From the NCBI GenBank assembly GCA_023230265.1, contig JALNXR010000012.1, positions 1 through 18,136 on the forward strand: 18,136 bases of DNA, written 5' to 3'. Both the position numbers and the translations under genes were made by a program. The DNA comes from Bacteroidales bacterium. GTDB taxonomy: Bacteria > Bacteroidota > Bacteroidia > Bacteroidales > UBA932. The notes under the pieces are model-generated. The model was not told where the DNA came from. It saw nothing but the letters and a program-made list of their open reading frames with translations, and did not search any database. This document shows, piece after piece, positions 4,207 through 18,136 of the stretch. Position 1 is the first letter of the stretch, and each line of letters begins with the position of its first letter.

Positions 4207-4791
4207 ATGCTGCCGGATTCCTCTCCTCTGGAATACAAAAGAAACATGTCAGATGCCGGAATTAAAACCGGCAGTGATGAGTGCTTTTCTGCTCTTTTCA
4301 AAGAGTATTACGGCAGTCTCTATTCTTATGCTGTAAGATTGCTTGCTGATGAAACAGAGGCAGAAGAGTGCGTTCATAACACATTCTGTCACTTATGGGA
4401 TGTTCGAAACAGCATTGAGATTAAAGATTCAGTGAGATCATATCTTTTCAGGGCGGTATACAACAGAGCTATTTCCTCGATAAGACAGAAAAAAATTATC
4501 TCAAGATATGAAGAAAAGGGTCTTTCTGAGCTCTATTTTACCAATGTTGTACAGACTCCCCAGGCAGAAGTCAAGCTGATAAGTTCCGAAACATCAAAAA
4601 TTATTGTGTCTGCAATCGAATCTTTGCCGGAAAGGTGCAGAGAGGTGTTTGTCGGGTGCAAAATCAGAGGAAAATCTTATGCAGAGGTTGCCCGTGCTCT
4701 TGAAATATCAGAAAAGACGGTTGAAAACCAAATGACAATTGCAATGAAAAAATTGAGGGAAAAGCTAAAATGGCTTTTGCTTTTCTTTTGA
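4207..4791 (+). CDS. FecI-like ECF RNA polymerase sigma factor
   Basis: Extracytoplasmic-function sigma factor of 194 residues, expected to direct transcription of the downstream uptake genes when released by FecR. The region 2 helix set spans about 26-93 (FKEYYGSLYSYAVRLL, EAEECVHNTFCHLWD, SYLFRAVYNRAIS). Region 4, with its helix-turn-helix, spans about 134-187 (LPERCREVFVGCKIRG, SYAEVARALEISEKTVENQM). The linker between them is short, as in FecI-type members. The annotated ATG at 4207 gives the longest product; an internal ATG at 4246 (residue 14) lies closer to the start of homology and could be the true start. The anti-sigma gene follows 77 bases later. Confidence 0.93.
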   Translation: MLPDSSPLEYKRNMSDAGIKTGSDECFSALFKEYYGSLYSYAVRLLADETEAEECVHNTFCHLWDVRNSIEIKDSVRSYLFRAVYNRAISSIRQKKIISRYEEKGLSELYFTNVVQTPQAEVKLISSETSKIIVSAIESLPERCREVFVGCKIRGKSYAEVARALEISEKTVENQMTIAMKKLREKLKWLLLFF

Positions 4792-4819
4792 TTTTTTAAA
4801 TATTATTCAAATTAGTTTT

Positions 4820-4834
4820 GGGGGTTTTGCCCCC
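4820..4834 (+). terminator. Short GC hairpin between sigma and anti-sigma genes
   Basis: GGGGG at 4820-4824 pairs with CCCCC at 4830-4834 around a 5-base loop, followed by GATTTTCG. The stem is only 5 pairs and the T-run is imperfect, so it is at best a partial attenuator. It could lower FecR output relative to sigma or protect the sigma transcript end. Confidence 0.35.
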
Positions 4835-4868
4835 GATTTTCGTCTTAACAATAATAAAAGCATAGTTT

Positions 4869-6071
4869 ATGCAGAGTGACAAAAGAGAAGATATTGATAT
4901 CCTACTTAACAGAATTTTAAACGGTGAAGCAGACTCCTCTGATATTGAAGTATTTTCTTTGTGGATAAGGGATCCCGGAAATGAAAAATACTTTGAGCAG
5001 TTTAAAGATATCTGGCACCTGAGCCACAGTACACTCCCGGATCCTGATAAAACAGCAAAAGAACATGACAGGTATATTAATTATATCAGGATGAGAAGGA
5101 GAAGGGAGAGGGCAACAAAGAGTCTCACCCGTGTTTTTTCCATTGCCGCTGTTACCCTGATTTTATTCGGACTATATATTTTTGTCAATCAATATGTTAT
5201 TCAATATGATTACACGAACATATCTCTTGCCGAATTAAAATATAATACCGATTCAATTAAAGTCGTACTCTCCGATGGGCGTGTTATAAATCCTTTGTCA
5301 GGTAACTCTTTTGAAGACAGTAATATTACAGAGAGTGGACTTGTGATTGATCCTGTAAATGCCAGACAAATATCCTATGTTCCGGGAGAGAAAAGATCTA
5401 TACGGAAAACAACACAGGCAAAAGATGGTGTAAAGTTTAATTCTGTATCCATTCCTCCTGGAGAGAGATTTGTTATTATGCTGTCAGACAGCACAATGGT
5501 ATATCTTAATTCAAATTCCTACCTAAGATATCCCGTGAATTTCGGAGAAGGTACAAGGCATGTAACACTGTCTGGAAGAGCCTATTTTGACGTGACAAAA
5601 TCGAGTAAACCATTTATTGTTACAACTAACGACATGGAGGTGGAGGTTCTGGGTACCTCTTTTGATGTTGAATCGTCTGAGGCAGCAAAAAACTCTTCCG
5701 TAATTCTGGTTGAGGGATCTGTAAGGGTAACTGCCAACGGTCAGACAAAAGTTATTAGTCCTAACGAAAAATTCACATTGAATCATGTTTTCAACGAAGT
5801 TTCCATTAGCAATATTGATTCAAAAACCATGACCCTGTGGAAAGACGGCATTCTGGTACTCAAAGAACTCTCTTTTGACCAGATGATTGAGAGCCTGAGT
5901 TCCTGGTACGGAGTGGAGATAGAAGACCGGTCAACCGTTCCCGAAACAGACCGTTTCAACGGTAAGTTTGACAGGGAGGATATAAAAGCTGCGATGAAAA
6001 CGATAGCTCTGAGCGCAAAGGTGAAATATAAAGTCCGCGAGGGGAAGCTTGTAATTGAAGATGGAAAATAA
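4869..6071 (+). CDS. FecR-family anti-sigma factor
   Basis: Inner-membrane anti-sigma of 400 residues that is expected to hold the adjacent ECF sigma factor inactive until signalled by the STN domain of the SusC receptor. Residues 1-80 are a cytoplasmic sigma-binding region (LNRILNGEADSSDIEVFSLW) ending in a basic RMRRRRERATK stretch. One membrane segment lies at about 87-109. The periplasmic FecR domain spans about 190-290 (SIPPGERFVIMLSDSTMVYL, GRAYFDVTKSSKPFIV, VEVLGTSFDV). A C-terminal DUF4974-type domain lies at about 330-397 (LKELSFDQMIESLSSWYGVE). The order sigma, FecR, SusC with STN is the classic arrangement of this regulatory cascade. The gene looks intact. Confidence 0.94.
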   Translation: MQSDKREDIDILLNRILNGEADSSDIEVFSLWIRDPGNEKYFEQFKDIWHLSHSTLPDPDKTAKEHDRYINYIRMRRRRERATKSLTRVFSIAAVTLILFGLYIFVNQYVIQYDYTNISLAELKYNTDSIKVVLSDGRVINPLSGNSFEDSNITESGLVIDPVNARQISYVPGEKRSIRKTTQAKDGVKFNSVSIPPGERFVIMLSDSTMVYLNSNSYLRYPVNFGEGTRHVTLSGRAYFDVTKSSKPFIVTTNDMEVEVLGTSFDVESSEAAKNSSVILVEGSVRVTANGQTKVISPNEKFTLNHVFNEVSISNIDSKTMTLWKDGILVLKELSFDQMIESLSSWYGVEIEDRSTVPETDRFNGKFDREDIKAAMKTIALSAKVKYKVREGKLVIEDGK

Positions 6072-6092
6072 AAAGGCGGGATTGAACTGAAA

Positions 6093-6175
6093 ATAAAAAA
6101 GCGGGAGATGCTAAGGCCTGGTAAACTTTAATCTCTCCCGCATACCGATCAATAATCTATAATATTAACCAGAAA
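6093..6175 (-). ncRNA. Candidate antisense small RNA in the susC leader
   Basis: On the minus strand a perfect 8-pair stem (GCGGGAGA with TCTCCCGC, at 6101-6108 and 6134-6141) is followed at once by TTTTTTATTTT (6100 down to 6090), a normal intrinsic terminator. Upstream on the same strand, TAGTTTTG at 6189-6182 matches the -7 consensus TAnnTTTG exactly and would start transcription near 6175. The product would be about 80 bases, antisense to the susC leader. Bacteroides fragilis DonS-type RNAs are known from the same position, between anti-sigma and susC genes, and repress the uptake locus. No clear -33 box is seen, and expression is an inference. Confidence 0.5.
6101..6141 (-). terminator. 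Hairpin with minus-strand T-run in the fecR-susC gap
   Basis: Eight perfect base pairs (6101-6108 with 6134-6141) enclose a 25-base loop. The T-run exists only on the minus strand; on the plus strand the stem is followed by ATACCGATC, which would not terminate. The element therefore points against the direction of fecR and susC, and most simply ends an antisense transcript. Confidence 0.55.
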
Positions 6176-6188
6176 TTATGGCAAAACT

Positions 6189-9100
6189 ATGAAAACTTTT
6201 CCATTATTGAGAAAAAAGTGCTTCAACGGAAGTCGCCTGCTACGGCAGTTAATCCTGCCGGTTCTTTTCTTTCTGATTTCACTCCCTGTGGCAAAAGGGA
6301 TTGAGCAGCAGGAAAAGGTTACTCTTAACCTGAAAAATGTGAGCATAGTGGAGTTTTTTAAAGAGGTGGAAAAACAGACCCCCTATAAGTTTTTCTACAA
6401 AAACTCCCAGATAGAGTCTGTTCCCAAGGTCTCCGTTGAGGCAAAGGATCAGCTCCTCACAGTTGTTCTGAACACAGTCTTTTCCAAGACAAATTTAACT
6501 TATGTTTTTAATGAAAAGCAGATTGTAATTCAGCAAAAACAGAATACACAAAGAACACCTCAAACAGTCAGAATCACAGGTGTGATTGTGGACAAAAATC
6601 AAATACCCCTTATGGGAGTCTCTGTTTTAATCCAGGGAACAAAGAAAGGTACGTTTACCGATGAAAACGGAAAATTTATCATAGATGTTCCCAAAACAAG
6701 GGGAGCCTCTCTTCTGGTCTCGATGATAGGTATGATCAACCAGGTGATTTACATCGACGATAAGACAGACTACAGAGTGACTATGGAGGATGATCAGGAG
6801 CAGCTCTCTGAGGTGGTCATTACAGGTTATCAGACCCTGCCCAAAGAGAGGTCTACCGGAGCTCATACCAGTCTTAGTTCAGAAGTTCTCGAGAAAACCA
6901 CTCATTTTAGCCTGAAGGATAAACTTGAAGCTTTGGTTCCCGGACTATACTTTGAACCTAACTATGTTGAGGACCAGTATCCTACAGAGGAGAGCAGCAG
7001 AAGCATCATAATCCGTGGTGCCAGTACATTTGGCGATAACAATCCTCTGATTGTAATTGACGGATTTCCTGCAAGTTCTGCTTCTGATCCATGGAAATCA
7101 ATTAATCCGGACGATATTGAAAACGTCACGGTTCTCAAGGATGCTTCGGCTGCATCTATCTGGGGAGCACAGGCCGCCAACGGAGTTATTGTAATAACGA
7201 CAAAAAGAGGCAAAAGTCCCACTCCCAGGATTGACATAACTGTAGACACATATGCACAGAGAGCACCCAATCTTTTTAAAATTCCCTGGGCAAGCAGTGC
7301 TGATGCCATTGAACTCTACAAATGGATGGGATTCGAAACTACCTATCTTGATGCACTTGGAACCAACGCGGCAACTTACGAAAAGTACGAGCTTTCTCCT
7401 CCAATCAAAATAATTGCAGAGGCAAAACTTGGCCTGATAACAATGGAACAGGCAAATATGCAACTTAATCAGCTTAAGGGGATTGATATCAGAAATGAAT
7501 TTGCCGATCTCTTCCTAAACAAGATGGAGAACAATACAAAAGCAAATATGTCCTTTCAGCTTGGCAGTGGATCACACAACTTCAGAACATCTCTCACAGT
7601 CACCAGCAACAGGAAATACAACAAGGGGAACTCAAAAAATGACTATATTATCAGTGTGAATGACCAGTATGCACCGGCAAAATGGATCAGAGTCTCTCTG
7701 GGTGCAAATATAAATCTGAGTGAAGAGGAGAGAAACGGATTCGTTATAAATGAACTGAACTATCTCAACCAGTTTGACAGAATACTGGACGGGAACGGTA
7801 ATTATCTTCCGATGAATGCTCAGGATTCCAGATCATCTTATGATTCCTATTTTGCACTCAAGACATCCGCAAGAAGAGACTCCGTTGCTAAGTATAAATT
7901 GCCTTATGACTGGGATTGGAACCTGAAACGGGAAGCCGAAACCAGGGATAACACCCAGAGAAATTCCGACATCAGGCTCACTGCTAAGGTAAATCTTATG
8001 CCATTGCCCGGGTTGAGCGTGGAGCTCTCATATCAGTATCAGTATATTAACCAATATCTCAGGGAATATTATAACGAGGACTCCTGGATGGTAAGGAATC
8101 AGGTAAACAACAATGCCAGAACAGACGGTACATACCCTGTTCCTCCCGGGGGGATGCTCTATGAAAATAAGAAATTCGGATCCGGGAATAATTACAGGGG
8201 GCAGATAACCTATGACAAAAAAATTAAGGATCACTCCATTAAAGTAATGGCTGGGACAGACTGGAGGAGAGATTATTACGACCAAACTCCTTATGGGTAT
8301 TATTCCTATGATCCGCAGGCTCTTACTTACGCAACCGGATTGGATTTTCAAACTGCCAACACCAAAATTATCAGGTCAGTCTAATTACTACTCGACAGTG
8401 CCGATGATTCCCGGAAAATACTATTTTAGTATGGATGGAAGAGATGACCGTTATGTCGGTTATTTCGGTAATTTTGGATACACCTATGCAAAGAAATATG
8501 ACTTTACCGGAAGTATCAGACTGGATAAGACAAATCTTTTTGGAGGGTCACAGGAGTCTCCCAATCTGCCGCAATGGTCTCTGGGTGCAGGGTGGAATAT
8601 AACTGAGGAGAAATTTGCAAAAGATATCAAATTCCTGGATTATTTAAAACTCAGGGTATCTTACGGATGGAACGGTAAGATTGACAAAACAGCAGCACCT
8701 TACCTCTACGGATACCCCTGGACAGACAAGGTTACCCTTCTTCCCTACTCTGCTATTCAGTCAGCTCCCAACCCCAGCCTTACCTGGGAGAAGACACAGA
8801 CCTATAATATCGGTGTGGATTATGCGTTCCTGAAAAACAGCATATCAGGTACCATCAACGTTTACCGCAAAAACTCGGACGACTGCCTGGTTCAGCTTGC
8901 AGTGAACGGAACATACGGATTCCAGAACAACAGGGGAACCTTTAACGGAGGCCGGCTGGAGAACACAGGTTTGGAATTCAATATTAACGCAAACATAGTT
9001 AATAATAAGAATTTCAAATGGCAGACAATGTTTATGTACTCAACCAATAAAAATATGGCAAGAGGTATAACCAAGGTTTCGGATAATACATCGGCCTACA

Positions 9101-9843
9101 CTACTATGGCTTTCTATTACCGCAAACCTGACCGGCCACTCAGTTATCTGGCAGCTGTCGAATTTGCCGGCTACGATGAGGTTGGTCTGCCAAAATTTAT
9201 ATATGACGGAGAGGTTACCAAAGTTACAGATATAGCAAATGCCAGCACTCTGATAATGGATAAACTCTTTAAATTTGTGGGGCAGAAAGATCCCAAGCAT
9301 TTTGGATCCTGGACCAACAGGTTTATTTATAAAAACTTTGAACTATCCCTTGGGCTTTATTATAAATTCGGGCATAAAGTAATCGGGGATTATCCTCCCA
9401 CAAATTTATTCACCTCTTCTGGTTTTTTGCAACCCACAAAGATGTACACCTTCCTGCCTGAGTTAATGCTGCACAGCTGGAAGTCAGAGGCAGATGCGGC
9501 TACTGCTGAAATGTACAACCTTAACAATAAAATAACAAACAGCAGCCATACTCAGCTGATGGATTTAATTATGTCTTACGGCACGCAAAATGTGTATAAT
9601 GCAGGATCTATCAGAGTGAAGAATATCTCATTATCCTATTCGGTGCCCAAAAAAGCTCTCAGCAAAATTAATCTCAAAGATCTGAGAATAGTAATTGAGG
9701 CCAGAAACCTCGGCACGATTGTAAAATTTGCACCTTTTGATCCGGATAATCCACCTTACAGCAGTTCTACTTATGGAGCCCTGATGTTCGTAACCAGAAA
9801 CCGTCCTGAGTTCTCTGCAGGATTAAAGATTGGTTTATTTTAA
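6189..9843 (+). pseudogene. SusC/RagA TonB-dependent receptor with STN domain, frameshifted
   Basis: Outer-membrane transporter that should import a polymer fragment with its SusD partner and signal to FecR. The first frame (6189-8384, 731 residues) has a signal peptide (to about 37), an STN domain (43-117) and a carboxypeptidase-regulatory-like domain (127-201). It continues with a TonB-box-like SEVVITG (207-213), a plug (about 215-345, with PLIVIDGFP and AANGVIVITTKRG) and the first barrel strands. It then stops at 8382-8384. The rest of the barrel continues in the +1 frame to 9843 and ends in the typical FSAGLKIGLF. Dropping one A from the AAAA run at 8364-8367 joins the frames smoothly (NTKLSGQSNYYSTVP) into about 1217 residues, a normal length. 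Either a recent inactivating mutation or a sequencing error. The SusD start follows after 18 bases. Confidence 0.92.
8364..8367 (+). other. Likely frameshift site in the SusC gene
   Basis: The run CCAAAATT holds four A bases. Removing one restores a continuous receptor frame across the stop at 8382-8384. The residues on both sides (YDPQALTYATGLDF before, YYSTVPMIPGKYYF after) are normal SusC barrel sequence, so the shift must lie between about 8350 and 8381. Confidence 0.75.
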
Positions 9844-9861
9844 TTTTTAATACCGACCACT

Positions 9862-11415
9862 ATGAAGAAAATATTATATTTTATAGCAATCTTTTTCATA
9901 ACAGGCATTTTAGCATCCTGTGAGAAAGAATTCCTGAATTCATTCCCAAGGGGACAGGTAATTGCAAAAACTACTGCAGACTTCAGAAAACTACTGGACT
10001 TTGTTGATAACTCGAGGTATTCGTATTCATTGTCCCTGACCACCGGTTATGTGGATGTTATGACAGACGACTGTTATATGGATTCCACAAAATGGAATTC
10101 ATACACAACCACCAGGGAGCATATAAAGAATCTCTATGCATACAAGAACAGCGTTTTCACTTATGATTCTCCCTCATTTACAAATGAGACCAACTGGAAT
10201 AACCAGTATTATACCATATCCCTCTGCAGCAATATCCTTTCCGAAATCACAATAGCCACAGACAATGTTGAAAAGCAGAAACAGCTTATCGGAGAGGCCA
10301 GAGTACACAGGGCCTATGCATATCTGATTCTTATAAACACCTTTGCTGTCCATTACAATGAAGCAACCGCAGCAACAGACAAGGGAGTTCCTATTATAAA
10401 TAACCCAACAGCGCTTCCTCCTCTTGACAGAAAATCAGTAAAAGAGGTCTATGAGTTTATTATCAGCGAACTGGAGAGTGCACTTCCTGACCTGCCCGAT
10501 GATGTGGATCAGTATAAACACAGACCTACAAAATTGAGTGTATATGCCATACTGGCCAGAACCTATCTCTATATGGGCAACTATACCAAGGCTTTGGAGA
10601 ATGCAAACAGTGCTCTTCAAATAAGAAATTATCTGTATGACTACAACACCATCTACACCGGCACCGTTGATTATTATAACAACCTTATTGGCATATCAAG
10701 GATGAACGACGAGGAGATGATCCTTTGGAAAACCTTTGCAAAGAGTGTGGTTTACACAACTGCATCTACCCATTATATTCTTGACACTATGACCTTCAAC
10801 CAGCTTTATCCCGATTTTATCAAGAATCCCGACGGAACGACTGTCAATTATGACCTTAGAAGGACTTTGAAGTTTAATGGGATAGCCTCTAACAGAAAAA
10901 TGACAGCCACCTCAACCTTCCAGTTTAATTTTTATAACCAAAGATATAAAACCGACTCAAATAAGGGCGGAACAACCTGTCATAATCCTGTTGCAACACC
11001 GGAGATGTATCTCACAAGAGCAGAATGTAATGCACGGGCGGGTAATCTCCAGGCAGCACTTGATGATGTAAATGCAATATGTTCAAAGCGTTATAAAACC
11101 GGATCCTTTACCAATCTTACTCCGGCAAATTTCCAGAACAACAAAGATCTGGTACTTGACAGAGTTTTACTTGAGAGAAGGAGGGAGCTCTACGGAAAAG
11201 ACATGAGATTGTATGATCTTAAGCGCCTCAATTTACCATTCACCCATAAGCTGGGCTCTCTGACAATTTCGGTTCCTGCCAACGATCCAAGACTGATATG
11301 GCCGATATTCCCCAAGTATATCGAGATGAACTCGGAACTTGAGCAAAATGAGAGAGAAACATCCGGGGTAAAATATTATGACAAGAACGGAGTAGAAGTT
11401 CCGATTACAGATTGA
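9862..11415 (+). CDS. SusD/RagB-family nutrient-binding lipoprotein
   Basis: Cell-surface lipoprotein of 517 residues that caps the SusC channel and captures the substrate. The signal peptide ends in the lipobox ILAS|C20. Family landmarks are KEFLNSFPRGQVI after the lipid cysteine, the helical segment EARVHRAYAYLILINTFAV near 145-163, and YLTRAECNARAGNLQAALDD in the TPR-like region. The C-terminal ERRRELYGKDMRLYDLKRLN completes the set. The gene is intact although its SusC partner is frameshifted. The substrate cannot be read from sequence; no carbohydrate-active enzymes lie nearby, while a thioredoxin and a peptidase-like hydrolase do, which leans weakly toward peptides or an esterified substrate. 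Confidence 0.94.
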   Translation: MKKILYFIAIFFITGILASCEKEFLNSFPRGQVIAKTTADFRKLLDFVDNSRYSYSLSLTTGYVDVMTDDCYMDSTKWNSYTTTREHIKNLYAYKNSVFTYDSPSFTNETNWNNQYYTISLCSNILSEITIATDNVEKQKQLIGEARVHRAYAYLILINTFAVHYNEATAATDKGVPIINNPTALPPLDRKSVKEVYEFIISELESALPDLPDDVDQYKHRPTKLSVYAILARTYLYMGNYTKALENANSALQIRNYLYDYNTIYTGTVDYYNNLIGISRMNDEEMILWKTFAKSVVYTTASTHYILDTMTFNQLYPDFIKNPDGTTVNYDLRRTLKFNGIASNRKMTATSTFQFNFYNQRYKTDSNKGGTTCHNPVATPEMYLTRAECNARAGNLQAALDDVNAICSKRYKTGSFTNLTPANFQNNKDLVLDRVLLERRRELYGKDMRLYDLKRLNLPFTHKLGSLTISVPANDPRLIWPIFPKYIEMNSELEQNERETSGVKYYDKNGVEVPITD

Positions 11416-15947: not shown

Positions 15948-17726
15948 ATGAACATCAAACTAAAAATTTGCACGGCACTAATTTTATCAGCACTCTTTTC
16001 TGTGCAATGTCAGGAAAGGGAAGGCATTCCCGGCAGTGTTCTGTTTACGGTAACATCAGAAGCAGATGAGTATGACGGAACAGTTTTGGCTTTTCCCGGA
16101 GACCGTACATCTATCGAGATGGAGGTAAGCACAGACGGTACAGAGAATGGCTGGGAGACAACTTCACCAACTAAGGATAGTTGGATTACTACAGAAAAGA
16201 TCGACGGTAAGCTTTACGTAACTGTCGATATCAACGAATCGACAATTCCTCGCACCAGCTATATTAAAGTATATTCTGGAAAAAGCGAAAGGACAATTAA
16301 CGTAACACAGGACTATTACAGAAAATTACAATTTTTTGGTTCAGAAAAAAGCATCGGTGCCTCTTCCGGAGTATACACTGTTTTTTTCAACACTAATGTT
16401 TTGACAGAAAATCTTTCATGCACTCTTGACCAGGCAGCTTCTGCCTGGATCACTAATGTAAATATTGGTGAAGGTGTGATTAACTTCTTTGCAAGCCGAA
16501 ACACTTCAACCACCGCTGCAAGAAGTGGTGTAGTGACACTTTCCGGTGACGGTAAAAACGCTGAAATAACAATAATTCAAAACCCCTTGACAGGGAAAGC
16601 GTATATTGTTAATATAAGCTCAATTGCCTGGGAAGAGTCCTCAGTTTATAATATTATGGCATCGGGAGAAAAAGTAGGAGAGATTTGTAAAGAGTATATT
16701 TATAAATACGATGATGTAAATGCAATCCCGGTTGTGAGAGGATCGATGATGATAGCTTATCCTATGAATATTTCCGGCAATGTGGACTATGCGAATGGTT
16801 ATGTAATAGATAACGGAGGTTCGATTATATGGAACACAGCTGTTACGGTGGAAACAGCAGGAAATGAAATGATTGCCCAGTACAATCCAGGTTCTCTGAC
16901 AGTAACCCCGTCAACAATCTATTTCCCGGACGGAGCCTCTTCGTTTACCCACATACAAATGGGAGCAGAGGATATGGCATCAGCAATAACAGCTGATACA
17001 GAACCGATGCTTCTTGTTGACGTAAAAAGCGGTGAGGCAAATACAGCAGGGGAGACTACAGAAACAATCACCTATGGAGTTGTAAAAATCGGACGTAATT
17101 ACTGGTTGAACACAAATTATGCATCTTCACGTTATGCTGATGGAAGTAATATTCCTACAAACATTGCAAATGCACAATGGACAAATATATCCAATCCCGG
17201 TTGTCTGGTTTCCGGAACCTCTTCTACCAACACATACCTTGATGCAAACTCTTCAAATGCTACAACTACAAGAAGAACATACGGCTGTTTGTATAACTGG
17301 CAGGCTCTTACAGGTGCTGTTATTTTGCCTGATCAGACAACAGAAACTGACAGAAAGAGTGATATAATCTCTCCGGAAGGTTGGTCAGTCCCGTCAAAGG
17401 ATGACTATACGATAATGAGGAATTACATTACACAGGGTTCACCCAATCCAACAACAGATCCTTTGAATGAATGTTATACAACAGCTACTACCACCTATGC
17501 AAATATAACCGGTTTTAATGGTCTCGGGACCCGGTCAAGAGGCTATAAATCCGGCGGATATAATACAGGAACCTATTATTGGACAATTGACTATACCTTT
17601 AAAGGATCTAATACTGCCGGGACCCAGGATGGTCATATGGGTTATATCCTTTCTCTTAACAAGTCAACAAATATCACTACAATCGGAGTTTCTACCGGTT
17701 GTTATTTACGTTTAATTAAGGACTGA
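15948..17726 (+). CDS. BACON/FISUMP-domain surface lipoprotein
   Basis: Protein of 592 residues with an N-terminal hydrophobic signal and a probable lipid cysteine C21; the residue before it is Gln, which is unusual for a lipobox. Residues about 45-121 and 130-213 look like two BACON-type beta-sandwich domains (DSWITTEKIDGKLYVTVDIN, RTINVTQDY, then ASAWITNV and AEITIIQNP). BACON domains in this phylum are often surface binding or spacer modules. Residues about 215-370 are unassigned. Residues about 375-592 match the FISUMP (Fibrobacter succinogenes major paralogous) pattern: KIGRNYWLNTNY, RTYGCLYNWQALTG, SPEGWSVPSKDDY, GCYLRLIKD. It is probably a surface-exposed binding protein for the operon. 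The next start lies 1 base after its stop, so the two genes are translationally coupled. Confidence 0.75.
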   Translation: MNIKLKICTALILSALFSVQCQEREGIPGSVLFTVTSEADEYDGTVLAFPGDRTSIEMEVSTDGTENGWETTSPTKDSWITTEKIDGKLYVTVDINESTIPRTSYIKVYSGKSERTINVTQDYYRKLQFFGSEKSIGASSGVYTVFFNTNVLTENLSCTLDQAASAWITNVNIGEGVINFFASRNTSTTAARSGVVTLSGDGKNAEITIIQNPLTGKAYIVNISSIAWEESSVYNIMASGEKVGEICKEYIYKYDDVNAIPVVRGSMMIAYPMNISGNVDYANGYVIDNGGSIIWNTAVTVETAGNEMIAQYNPGSLTVTPSTIYFPDGASSFTHIQMGAEDMASAITADTEPMLLVDVKSGEANTAGETTETITYGVVKIGRNYWLNTNYASSRYADGSNIPTNIANAQWTNISNPGCLVSGTSSTNTYLDANSSNATTTRRTYGCLYNWQALTGAVILPDQTTETDRKSDIISPEGWSVPSKDDYTIMRNYITQGSPNPTTDPLNECYTTATTTYANITGFNGLGTRSRGYKSGGYNTGTYYWTIDYTFKGSNTAGTQDGHMGYILSLNKSTNITTIGVSTGCYLRLIKD

Positions 17727-17727
17727 A

Positions 17728-18136
17728 ATGATGAAGATAATCAAAACTATATTATCCGCCATATTGGCTGCAGCATCAATATTTTACGCTGTTCTTTCCA
17801 TTAATACTGTATATGCACAGAGCAAAATAACAGTACAGGGAAAGATTGTTGACTCAGATGGAGGACCTCTGCCCGGAGTGGCAGTAGTGCTTGAAGGGAC
17901 TAATCAGGGAGTTGTATCAGATAATAATGGGGTATATTCTTTTACCTTTACCGGAAGTGATAACTCAGTACTTATATTCAAGTTTATCGGGATGAAATCT
18001 CAAAAAGTCACTATAGGGACCAAAAGATTAATCAATGTTATACTTGAACTTGATACAGAGGTTCTGGAAGAGGTAATAGTAACCGGATATGGTAACATTA
18101 CCAAAGAAGCGTATACCGGCTCCGCCTCAGTTATTA
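17728..18136 (+). CDS. SusC/RagA TonB-dependent receptor, N-terminal part
   Basis: 136 codons of a second outer-membrane receptor, cut by the window edge. It has a signal peptide (about 1-31, TVYA|Q) and a carboxypeptidase-regulatory-like domain (ITVQGKIVDSDGGPLPGVAV, VVSDNNGVYSF). A TonB-box region follows (LEEVIVTGYGNITKEAYTG). Unlike the receptor at 6189 it has no STN domain, so it should not signal through FecR. The start may be 17728 or the adjacent ATG at 17731. A SusD gene is expected just beyond the window. Confidence 0.92.
   Translation, partial: MMKIIKTILSAILAAASIFYAVLSINTVYAQSKITVQGKIVDSDGGPLPGVAVVLEGTNQGVVSDNNGVYSFTFTGSDNSVLIFKFIGMKSQKVTIGTKRLINVILELDTEVLEEVIVTGYGNITKEAYTGSASVI

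Follow-up and report, generated by a model that had tools for sequence, protein, structure and literature searches.

The closest described counterparts of the element analysed here, a predicted antisense RNA between an anti-sigma gene (fecR) and a SusC-type transporter gene (susC) of a Bacteroidales bacterium, are the cis-antisense RNAs of 78-128 nt represented by DonS, which are divergent to susC homologues (PMC7366714; here and below, the cited articles are represented by excerpts). The DNA in question is a stretch of 18,136 nt (contig JALNXR010000012.1 of assembly GCA_023230265.1), hereafter the window. In Bacteroides thetaiotaomicron a sigmaABfr promoter, with the -7 consensus TAnnTTTG, has been reported for 52% of the cis-antisense RNAs, and since the -33 element is not identifiable in Flavobacterium johnsoniae (PMC7366714) we did not treat it as defining. 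Antisense RNAs of polysaccharide utilization loci (PULs) in B. thetaiotaomicron were first counted as 10 (PMC7366714) and later as 32 (PMC10994844). DonS represses a PUL of B. fragilis through a mechanism called unknown in 2025, and PULs for host glycans typically have an extracytoplasmic function (ECF) sigma/anti-sigma pair (PMC11697453).

The window RNA, with a predicted length of 87 nt, falls within the DonS size range, is likewise divergent to a susC homologue whose leader it overlaps, and would be transcribed from a housekeeping promoter with a TAnnTTTG -7 box. DonS loci are reportedly under sigma/anti-sigma control, and DonS is said to end at an intrinsic terminator before the anti-sigma gene; the window has both an ECF sigma/anti-sigma pair and an intrinsic terminator in that place. 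It differs in its host, which is not Bacteroides, and in lacking a -33 box, and its two-hairpin form and the start-codon register of its promoter are not mentioned for DonS-type RNAs in the excerpts. The likeness rests on described place, orientation and size, not on the DonS sequence.

FopS/GibS of Bacteroides are also small RNAs with a terminator hairpin linked to PUL control, with 9 of 14 members being intergenic, but the FopS consensus is a single-stranded 5' stretch followed by one terminator hairpin (PMC11697453), whereas the window RNA has two hairpins. The window RNA has no Rfam match: the whole window gave none at the gathering score, and positions 6040-6260, searched up to E = 5, gave three weak unrelated matches, neither FopS nor GibS among them. 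CopA and RNA I, antisense RNAs with U-turn (YUNR) recognition loops, serve plasmid copy control and are not known to have a link to SusC or ECF sigma factors; they share with the window RNA full complementarity in cis and hairpins, and YUNR is enriched in the sense-strand loops of related loci (see below). Transcriptomics of Flavobacterium psychrophilum counts antisense RNAs and cites Cao et al. 2016, the source for DonS, with no tie to susC in the excerpt (PMC9723704), and the excerpt of a further study gives only a count of cis-antisense RNAs (PMC10861873). Among the literature matches listed, as judged by title and opening of the abstract, none reports a DonS-type antisense RNA outside Bacteroides. 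To judge from its sequence, the window RNA is an added case of the DonS-type kind, with predicted transcription and repression; what may be new is the distribution of the kind outside Bacteroides, the register of the promoter with the start codon and the sharing of a FecR-RNA-STN cassette by unlike SusC barrels.

A predicted antisense RNA opposite the susC leader

The strand opposite susC very probably encodes a small regulatory RNA in the fecR-susC gap, and the best explanation of the locus as a whole, mechanism included, is a DonS-like cis-antisense RNA of about 87 nt, to which we give a probability of roughly 0.78. This explanation joins computed promoter and terminator sequences, minus-strand structure, conservation and linkage to a course of events (transcription, pairing, repression and release by induction) that we infer from them. 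The plus strand reads AAAATAAAAAA from 6090 to 6100, GCGGGAGA...TCTCCCGC from 6101 to 6141 and, after a spacer, CAAAACTATG from 6182 to 6191. On the minus strand this corresponds to a perfect -7 box overlapping the A of the susC ATG and, about 40 nt further on, a strong hairpin with a T-run (Table 1). With the start assumed 5 nt past the -7 box and the end in the T-run, the predicted RNA starts about 12 nt before the susC ATG, overlaps the susC leader in divergent orientation and folds into two hairpins, the first lying within 10 nt of its 5' end.

A preliminary description of this DNA had already pointed to the minus-strand hairpin with its T-run and to the perfect -7 element at the proper distance; both were recovered, the terminator finder giving -16.8 kcal/mol on the minus strand of the gap and no terminator on its plus strand. 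A general hairpin scan omits this structure, probably because its rule limits loops to 8 nt or fewer. The same description took it for the only strong hairpin in the gap and put the transcript at about 80 bases; the terminator and the predicted short RNA hold, but a further 5' hairpin was found and the length is nearer 87 nt. The inner part of the terminator hairpin is strongly conserved, and the 5' hairpin contains G-U pairs, which have no counterpart on the plus strand. Positions 6093-6176 of the minus strand (84 bases) fold at -26.4 kcal/mol (z = -4.06), with none of 200 dinucleotide shuffles equally stable, and for 6088-6143 (z = -3.82) one of 200 was. TAnnTTTG by itself is no rarity (28 occurrences in the window, 17.4 expected; CAAAnnTATG, 1 and 1.1, respectively), so that the weight rests on its register and position, its conservation and its linkage to the terminator. 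A 10-codon frame (ATG-CGG-GAG...TAG) in the window RNA was considered as a small peptide and rejected: its ATG is absent from the nine other aligned copies, and an ATG in L274 lies one base off and in a different frame.

Conservation among close relatives

A SusC-protein scan of genome contigs returned 13 loci, the nearest named relatives being the metagenome-assembled genomes UBA6088, HGW-Bacteroidetes-5, HGW-Bacteroidetes-8 and GWF2_40_14, not Bacteroides. Four loci with 69-81% identity were taken as orthologues (L001, L002, L003, L011). Conservation of stem and T-run in orthologous gaps had been set beforehand as a test, and all four keep the stem, a T-rich tail (interrupted in L011), the arms of the 5' hairpin and, with the -7 box, CAAAACTATG. 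Together with the window they have a common two-hairpin fold of 81-87 nt (81-86 nt in the orthologues), and these five sequences trained a covariance model, R1, with which the window RNA, itself in the training set, scores 94.6 bits. In a search of 249 genomes from the family to which G003, the source of L003, belongs, R1 gave ten matches in 7 genomes. Nine were strong (77.6-100.8 bits, six genomes), comprising the four training loci and five new ones, and all nine are antisense, lie between FecR-like and SusC-like reading frames and have CAAAACTATGAAA at their start; the covariance search suggested in the preliminary description added five loci of this arrangement. The tenth match (34.8 bits) lies outside a fecR-susC context and is probably due to chance.

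The -7 box is identical in the nine relatives, and all have the T-rich tail, interrupted in some. Their mean nucleotide identity to the window is 100% over the -7 box and start and 83% over the RNA, falling to 68% in susC codons 16-60 and 64% at the fecR 3' end. These means carry a bias, since it was the RNA itself that led to five of the nine. In the four orthologues found by protein (L266, L268, L269, L273) the corresponding values are 83-85% for the RNA, 61-75% for the fecR 3' end and 60-77% for susC codons 16-60. Synonymous sites in susC codons 2-15 are unusually conserved, in 11/12, 7/9, 7/9 and 11/12 cases in the four orthologues against 45-47% further on, as expected if promoter or translation signals overlap there, and are not conserved (29%) in L270 and L271. 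Across the ten sequences, 93.6% of cells of the 5' hairpin are paired. When R1 was run on 100 sources, strong matches were confined to the window, L047 and L048, four others being at chance level (E 0.55-0.86); as a sequence family the RNA is therefore confined to the window's kin, and its wider likeness is one of anatomy, not of sequence.

This pattern bears on the possibility that the hairpin is no more than a barrier keeping stray antisense transcription out of fecR, the short RNA being a functionless by-product. Transcription commonly starts in antisense, and the study of B. thetaiotaomicron itself cautions that some candidate antisense RNAs may lack a function (PMC7366714). Such a stop, however, does not account for an RNA better conserved than its flanks in orthologues found by protein, nor would it need a promoter in fixed register with the start codon or a structured 5' part on the minus strand, both of which are documented below; we consider it unlikely.

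The terminator in a wider sample

We collected 177 FecR_C loci, picked by best family score and not at random, of which 157 have a SusC-like gene next; the other 20 were dropped (no long reading frame next, next gene not SusC-like, or not resolved). The sources of the 177 loci were the eight genomes of the first loci, four of which (G001-G004) are the window's kin, together with a phylum-drawn sample and three families, those around Parabacteroides sp. PF5-6 (G008), Pseudoflavitalea rhizosphaerae (G006) and Sphingobacterium faecale (G007). As controls served 56 susC genes without fecR, meaning none within the fetched stretch, whose upper limit was about 1.6 kb. They were taken from 25 of the genomes that had also yielded fecR loci and remained from 70 loci, 66 of them parsed, after 10 with FecR upstream had been set apart.

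Within 200 nt upstream of susC, a terminator at least as stable as -12 kcal/mol was predicted on the minus strand at 90 of the 157 fecR-susC loci and on the plus strand at 16, against 9 and 6 in the 56 controls and 28 and 3 in 471 shuffles. On the minus strand it is found in 10 of 11 loci of G005-G008, 19 of 20 of the family of G006, 24 of 27 of that of G007 and 20 of 39 of that of G008. Strong hairpins with a T-run are confined to the minus strand at 77 loci and to the plus strand at 3; 13 loci have them on both. For the comparisons that follow, terminator loci are those with a minus-strand terminator at -10 kcal/mol or better (n = 106; hairpin inside the gap proper in 98) and terminator-free loci those with none at -8 (n = 47), four intermediate ones being excluded.

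A predicted promoter in register with the susC start codon

With the susC start taken as the first in-frame ATG (in five terminator loci the motif is at a later one), minus-strand TAnnTTTG falls within -60 to +20 of susC in 59/106 terminator loci, 4/47 terminator-free loci and 6/56 controls. It concentrates in two registers at the start codon, CAAAnnTATG (36 loci) and CAAATGTA, which spans the start codon (11 loci); the box is found at one or the other in 47/106, 2/47 and 2/56, respectively, and at least five of six consensus positions are present in 74, 12 and 7. A mere ribosome-binding context should be shared by terminator-free loci and controls, in which the box is mostly missing. Linkage of box and terminator holds when stratified by sample (p = 5e-12, boxes at later in-frame ATGs counted too) and when one locus is kept per 50%-identity cluster (n = 124: both 42, terminator only 36, box only 3, neither 43; p = 3e-8). 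Among the window's kin the box accompanies 10 of 11 terminator loci against 1 of 24 others, later in-frame ATGs included. A plus-strand C lies 5 nt beyond the box in 25 of the 47 box loci, which suggests an RNA starting with G; the window RNA would start with A.

Structure of the minus strand

Loci were selected without regard to the segment of the RNA that precedes the terminator. In the 47 RNAs predicted from box and terminator this 5' part has a mean z of -2.49 on the minus and -0.72 on the plus strand, the minus strand being better in 42 (p = 2e-11). When the stretch is fixed at 56 nt, so that some of the terminator may fall inside it, the values are -1.50 and -0.59 (minus better in 32/47), against -0.17 and -0.36 in terminator-free loci and -0.25 and -0.42 in controls. 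G-U pairs, as in the 5' hairpin of the window, would explain the asymmetry. In our view no other result points as strongly to the minus strand as the functional RNA. Predicted lengths, with starts assumed 5 nt past the box and ends 7 nt past the stem, are 78-158 nt, with 42 of 47 within 78-128 nt; divergent place, orientation and size all support the DonS-like candidate of the preliminary description.

The sense-strand loops opposite the antisense terminator loops carry the YUNR U-turn motif in 29/77 cases against 12.6 expected (0/1000 shuffles), or in 46/90 against 19.5 with the closing pair counted, while 742 other terminator loops show no enrichment (144 against 140). Neither do the bare loops of the antisense strand (9/77 against 9.6), and with the closing pair counted the excess there is weak (28/90 against 21.3, sd 4.1). 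The enrichment fits loop-loop recognition, its size being inflated by the non-independence of related loci. Inverted repeats seen by eye in the first susC codons were rejected as a further feature (z -0.98 in terminator loci, -0.64 in terminator-free loci, -0.70 in controls; p = 0.11 and 0.25).

The U-turn enrichment in sense-strand loops, not shared by terminator loops elsewhere, could also speak for a structured susC leader that controls translation or stability on the sense strand, the T-run opposite being incidental. A leader may indeed cover the hairpin: in a B. thetaiotaomicron mutant the PUL24 susC homologue BT1875 has a 5' end 291 nt upstream, inside the anti-sigma gene and without a housekeeping promoter (PMC11501099). 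A sense-strand element, nevertheless, leaves unexplained both the bias of the T-run to the minus strand and the better minus-strand folding of the 5' part, and we hold it to be highly improbable.

A FecR-RNA-STN cassette and paralogous copies

The two new R1 matches in the 100 sources, L047 (in G003; RNA at L047:1406-1490) and L048 (in G004; L048:1404-1489), precede SusC genes whose barrels are only 29% and 34% identical to that of the window, whereas their STN domains (57% and 61%), FecR proteins (53% and 57%) and RNAs (90% and 87%) are about as close to it as those of L002, L003 and L011 (61-62%, 50-56% and 85-89%, respectively). FecR, RNA and STN thus stay together across loci with different barrels. 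Genomes G002, G003 and G004 have two RNA copies each, the two cassettes being 8.4 kb apart in G002 and G003. The two G003 RNAs match at 68 of 81 aligned bases, before SusC barrels 35% identical, and cross-pairing is therefore conceivable. Such copies also invite the reading that the main targets of the RNA lie in trans, be they leaders of paralogous susC genes or other mRNAs, and not in cis. Full complementarity is, however, already given in cis, and every strong R1 match found in the G003 family sits at a susC start in the same promoter register, which leaves a mainly trans-acting RNA a slim chance.

Proposed mechanism and points against it

Under the antisense reading, the housekeeping sigmaABfr would start the RNA at the -7 box built into the susC start codon, and transcription would run away from susC, across its leader, to be halted at the hairpin and T-run before fecR. 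The RNA would pair with the 5' leader of the susC mRNA made via the ECF sigma factor or by read-through from fecR; given the BT1875 5' end inside the anti-sigma gene, a sense leader covering such a gap is plausible. Pairing would reach to about 12 nt before the ATG, near enough to hinder ribosome loading, and could silence susC in either or both of two ways: ribosomes would be kept off the mRNA, or RNase III would cut the duplex, the latter being the common alternative route. Once the FecR/sigma pair, which presumably controls the window's susC, is switched on, dense sense transcription over the antisense promoter would outcompete the antisense RNA.

Several observations weigh against this reading or limit its reach. 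The minus-strand terminator is frequent in some families and neither universal nor fixed at fecR-susC loci: strong ones are found in 11/35 loci of the window's kin and in 6/25 of the phylum-drawn sample, where the plus strand has 4. A perfect -7 box at the two start registers is missing from 59 of the 106 terminator loci, 27 of which miss one position, and linkage is weaker in 40%-identity clusters (n = 52: both 12, terminator only 16, box only 1, neither 23; p = 0.0013). No -33 TTTG box lies upstream of the window's -7 box, as the preliminary description had remarked, and as a shared feature it was rejected, plus-strand CAAA 8-35 nt past the motif start occurring in at most 3 of 47 related promoters at any position. 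Covariation in the ten close loci is not significant (one double-change pair, a level reached in 186 of 500 shuffles), as so little of the sequence varies, and the structural case rests therefore on the wider sample. Finally, the window's susC has a frame break at 8350-8384, where ORF (open reading frame) 6189-8384 stops early and ORF 8293-9843 carries on in another frame, against a single open frame of 1221-1239 aa in five related SusC genes. The break is either a sequencing error or the mark of a damaged gene, so that the window's RNA copy may precede a damaged gene.

Genes and other motifs of the locus

The features of the locus are collected in Table 1; the fecR-susC gap measures 117 nt.

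Table 1. Predicted RNA elements and genes of the fecR-susC locus, in window coordinates.
Feature	Position	Strand	Basis
Predicted antisense RNA, about 87 nt	6091..6177	-	anatomy, covariance model R1
-7 promoter element TAGTTTTG	6182..6189 (read 6189 to 6182)	-	perfect TAnnTTTG consensus of sigmaABfr
5' hairpin, arms CUGGUUAAUA / UAUUGAUCGG	6145..6172	-	folding
Terminator hairpin, 8-bp outer stem GCGGGAGA/UCUCCCGC	6101..6141	-	folding, terminator finder
Intrinsic-terminator T-run TTTTTTATTTT	6090..6100	-	sequence
ECF sigma factor gene	4207..4791	+	Pfam Sigma70_r2 + Sigma70_r4_2
fecR-type anti-sigma gene	4869..6071	+	Pfam FecR + FecR_C
susC-type TonB-dependent transporter gene with STN domain	6189..8384	+	Pfam STN, CarbopepD_reg_2, Plug
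Probable remainder of susC coding sequence, other frame	8293..9843	+	ORF list
susD-type gene	9862..11415	+	Pfam SusD-like_3 + SusD_RagB

Beside fecR, a near-repeat, AAATAAAAAGGCGGGA (6066-6081) and AAAATAAAAAAGCGGGA (6090-6106), partially duplicates the terminator 3' arm and T-run; it is present in the window and not in the four orthologues, and could act as a second terminator. Between the sigma and fecR genes lies a compact terminator-like hairpin, TTGGGGGTTTTGCCCCCGA (4818-4836, plus strand), followed by TTTTC. A second susC-type gene starts at 17728 (17728-18136) with no fecR adjoining; the previous gene ends at 17726, which leaves no room for an antisense unit of the fecR-susC kind. TAGTTTTG is also present there, at 17749-17742 on the minus strand.

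Dyad and k-mer enumeration of the 157 gaps gave no clear two-box motif for an ECF promoter of susC, and surfaced TTAACCA and GCCTATG words. TTAACC, located on the plus strand some 16-22 nt before the ATG, is over-represented, with 38 of 157 gaps containing it where shuffles gave 12.6; counted within 60 nt of susC, its rates are alike in terminator loci (14/106), terminator-free loci (6/47) and susC genes without fecR (6/56), and it therefore looks like a sense-side leader feature. GCCTATG or ATGCCTA was seen in 24 gaps (e.g. L104, L213, L222, L113 and L155), mostly shortly after the fecR stop and ahead of the hairpin, also in hairpin-less gaps, and by eye often with a stop codon within a few codons; a promoter part, a mini-ORF or a leader signal are candidate roles.

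Implications for SusC/SusD regulation

Taking the sample together, we see even chances that the antisense RNA is an old component, recurrent in many of the sigma/FecR/SusC systems of the Bacteroidota and no speciality of Bacteroides, with a start-codon-fused promoter, a kept cassette and cross-regulating sisters. Were this so, the promoter would be fused to the susC start codon so that the starts of transporter and silencer could not drift apart, FecR, RNA and STN would form one cassette in which the barrel changes, and sister RNAs of the same genome could cross-regulate.

SusC/SusD importers govern the choice of nutrients imported by the Bacteroidota, and many of them are switched by ECF sigma/FecR pairs. 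Should a large part of these loci, and in several families, carry an antisense layer as well, models of a pure sigma/anti-sigma switch would be incomplete. The anatomy described here also provides a genome rule for listing candidate antisense RNAs, namely TAnnTTTG on the susC start, a minus-strand terminator, a length of mostly 78-128 nt and a 5' hairpin, which predicts which fecR-susC loci have an antisense RNA and which do not.

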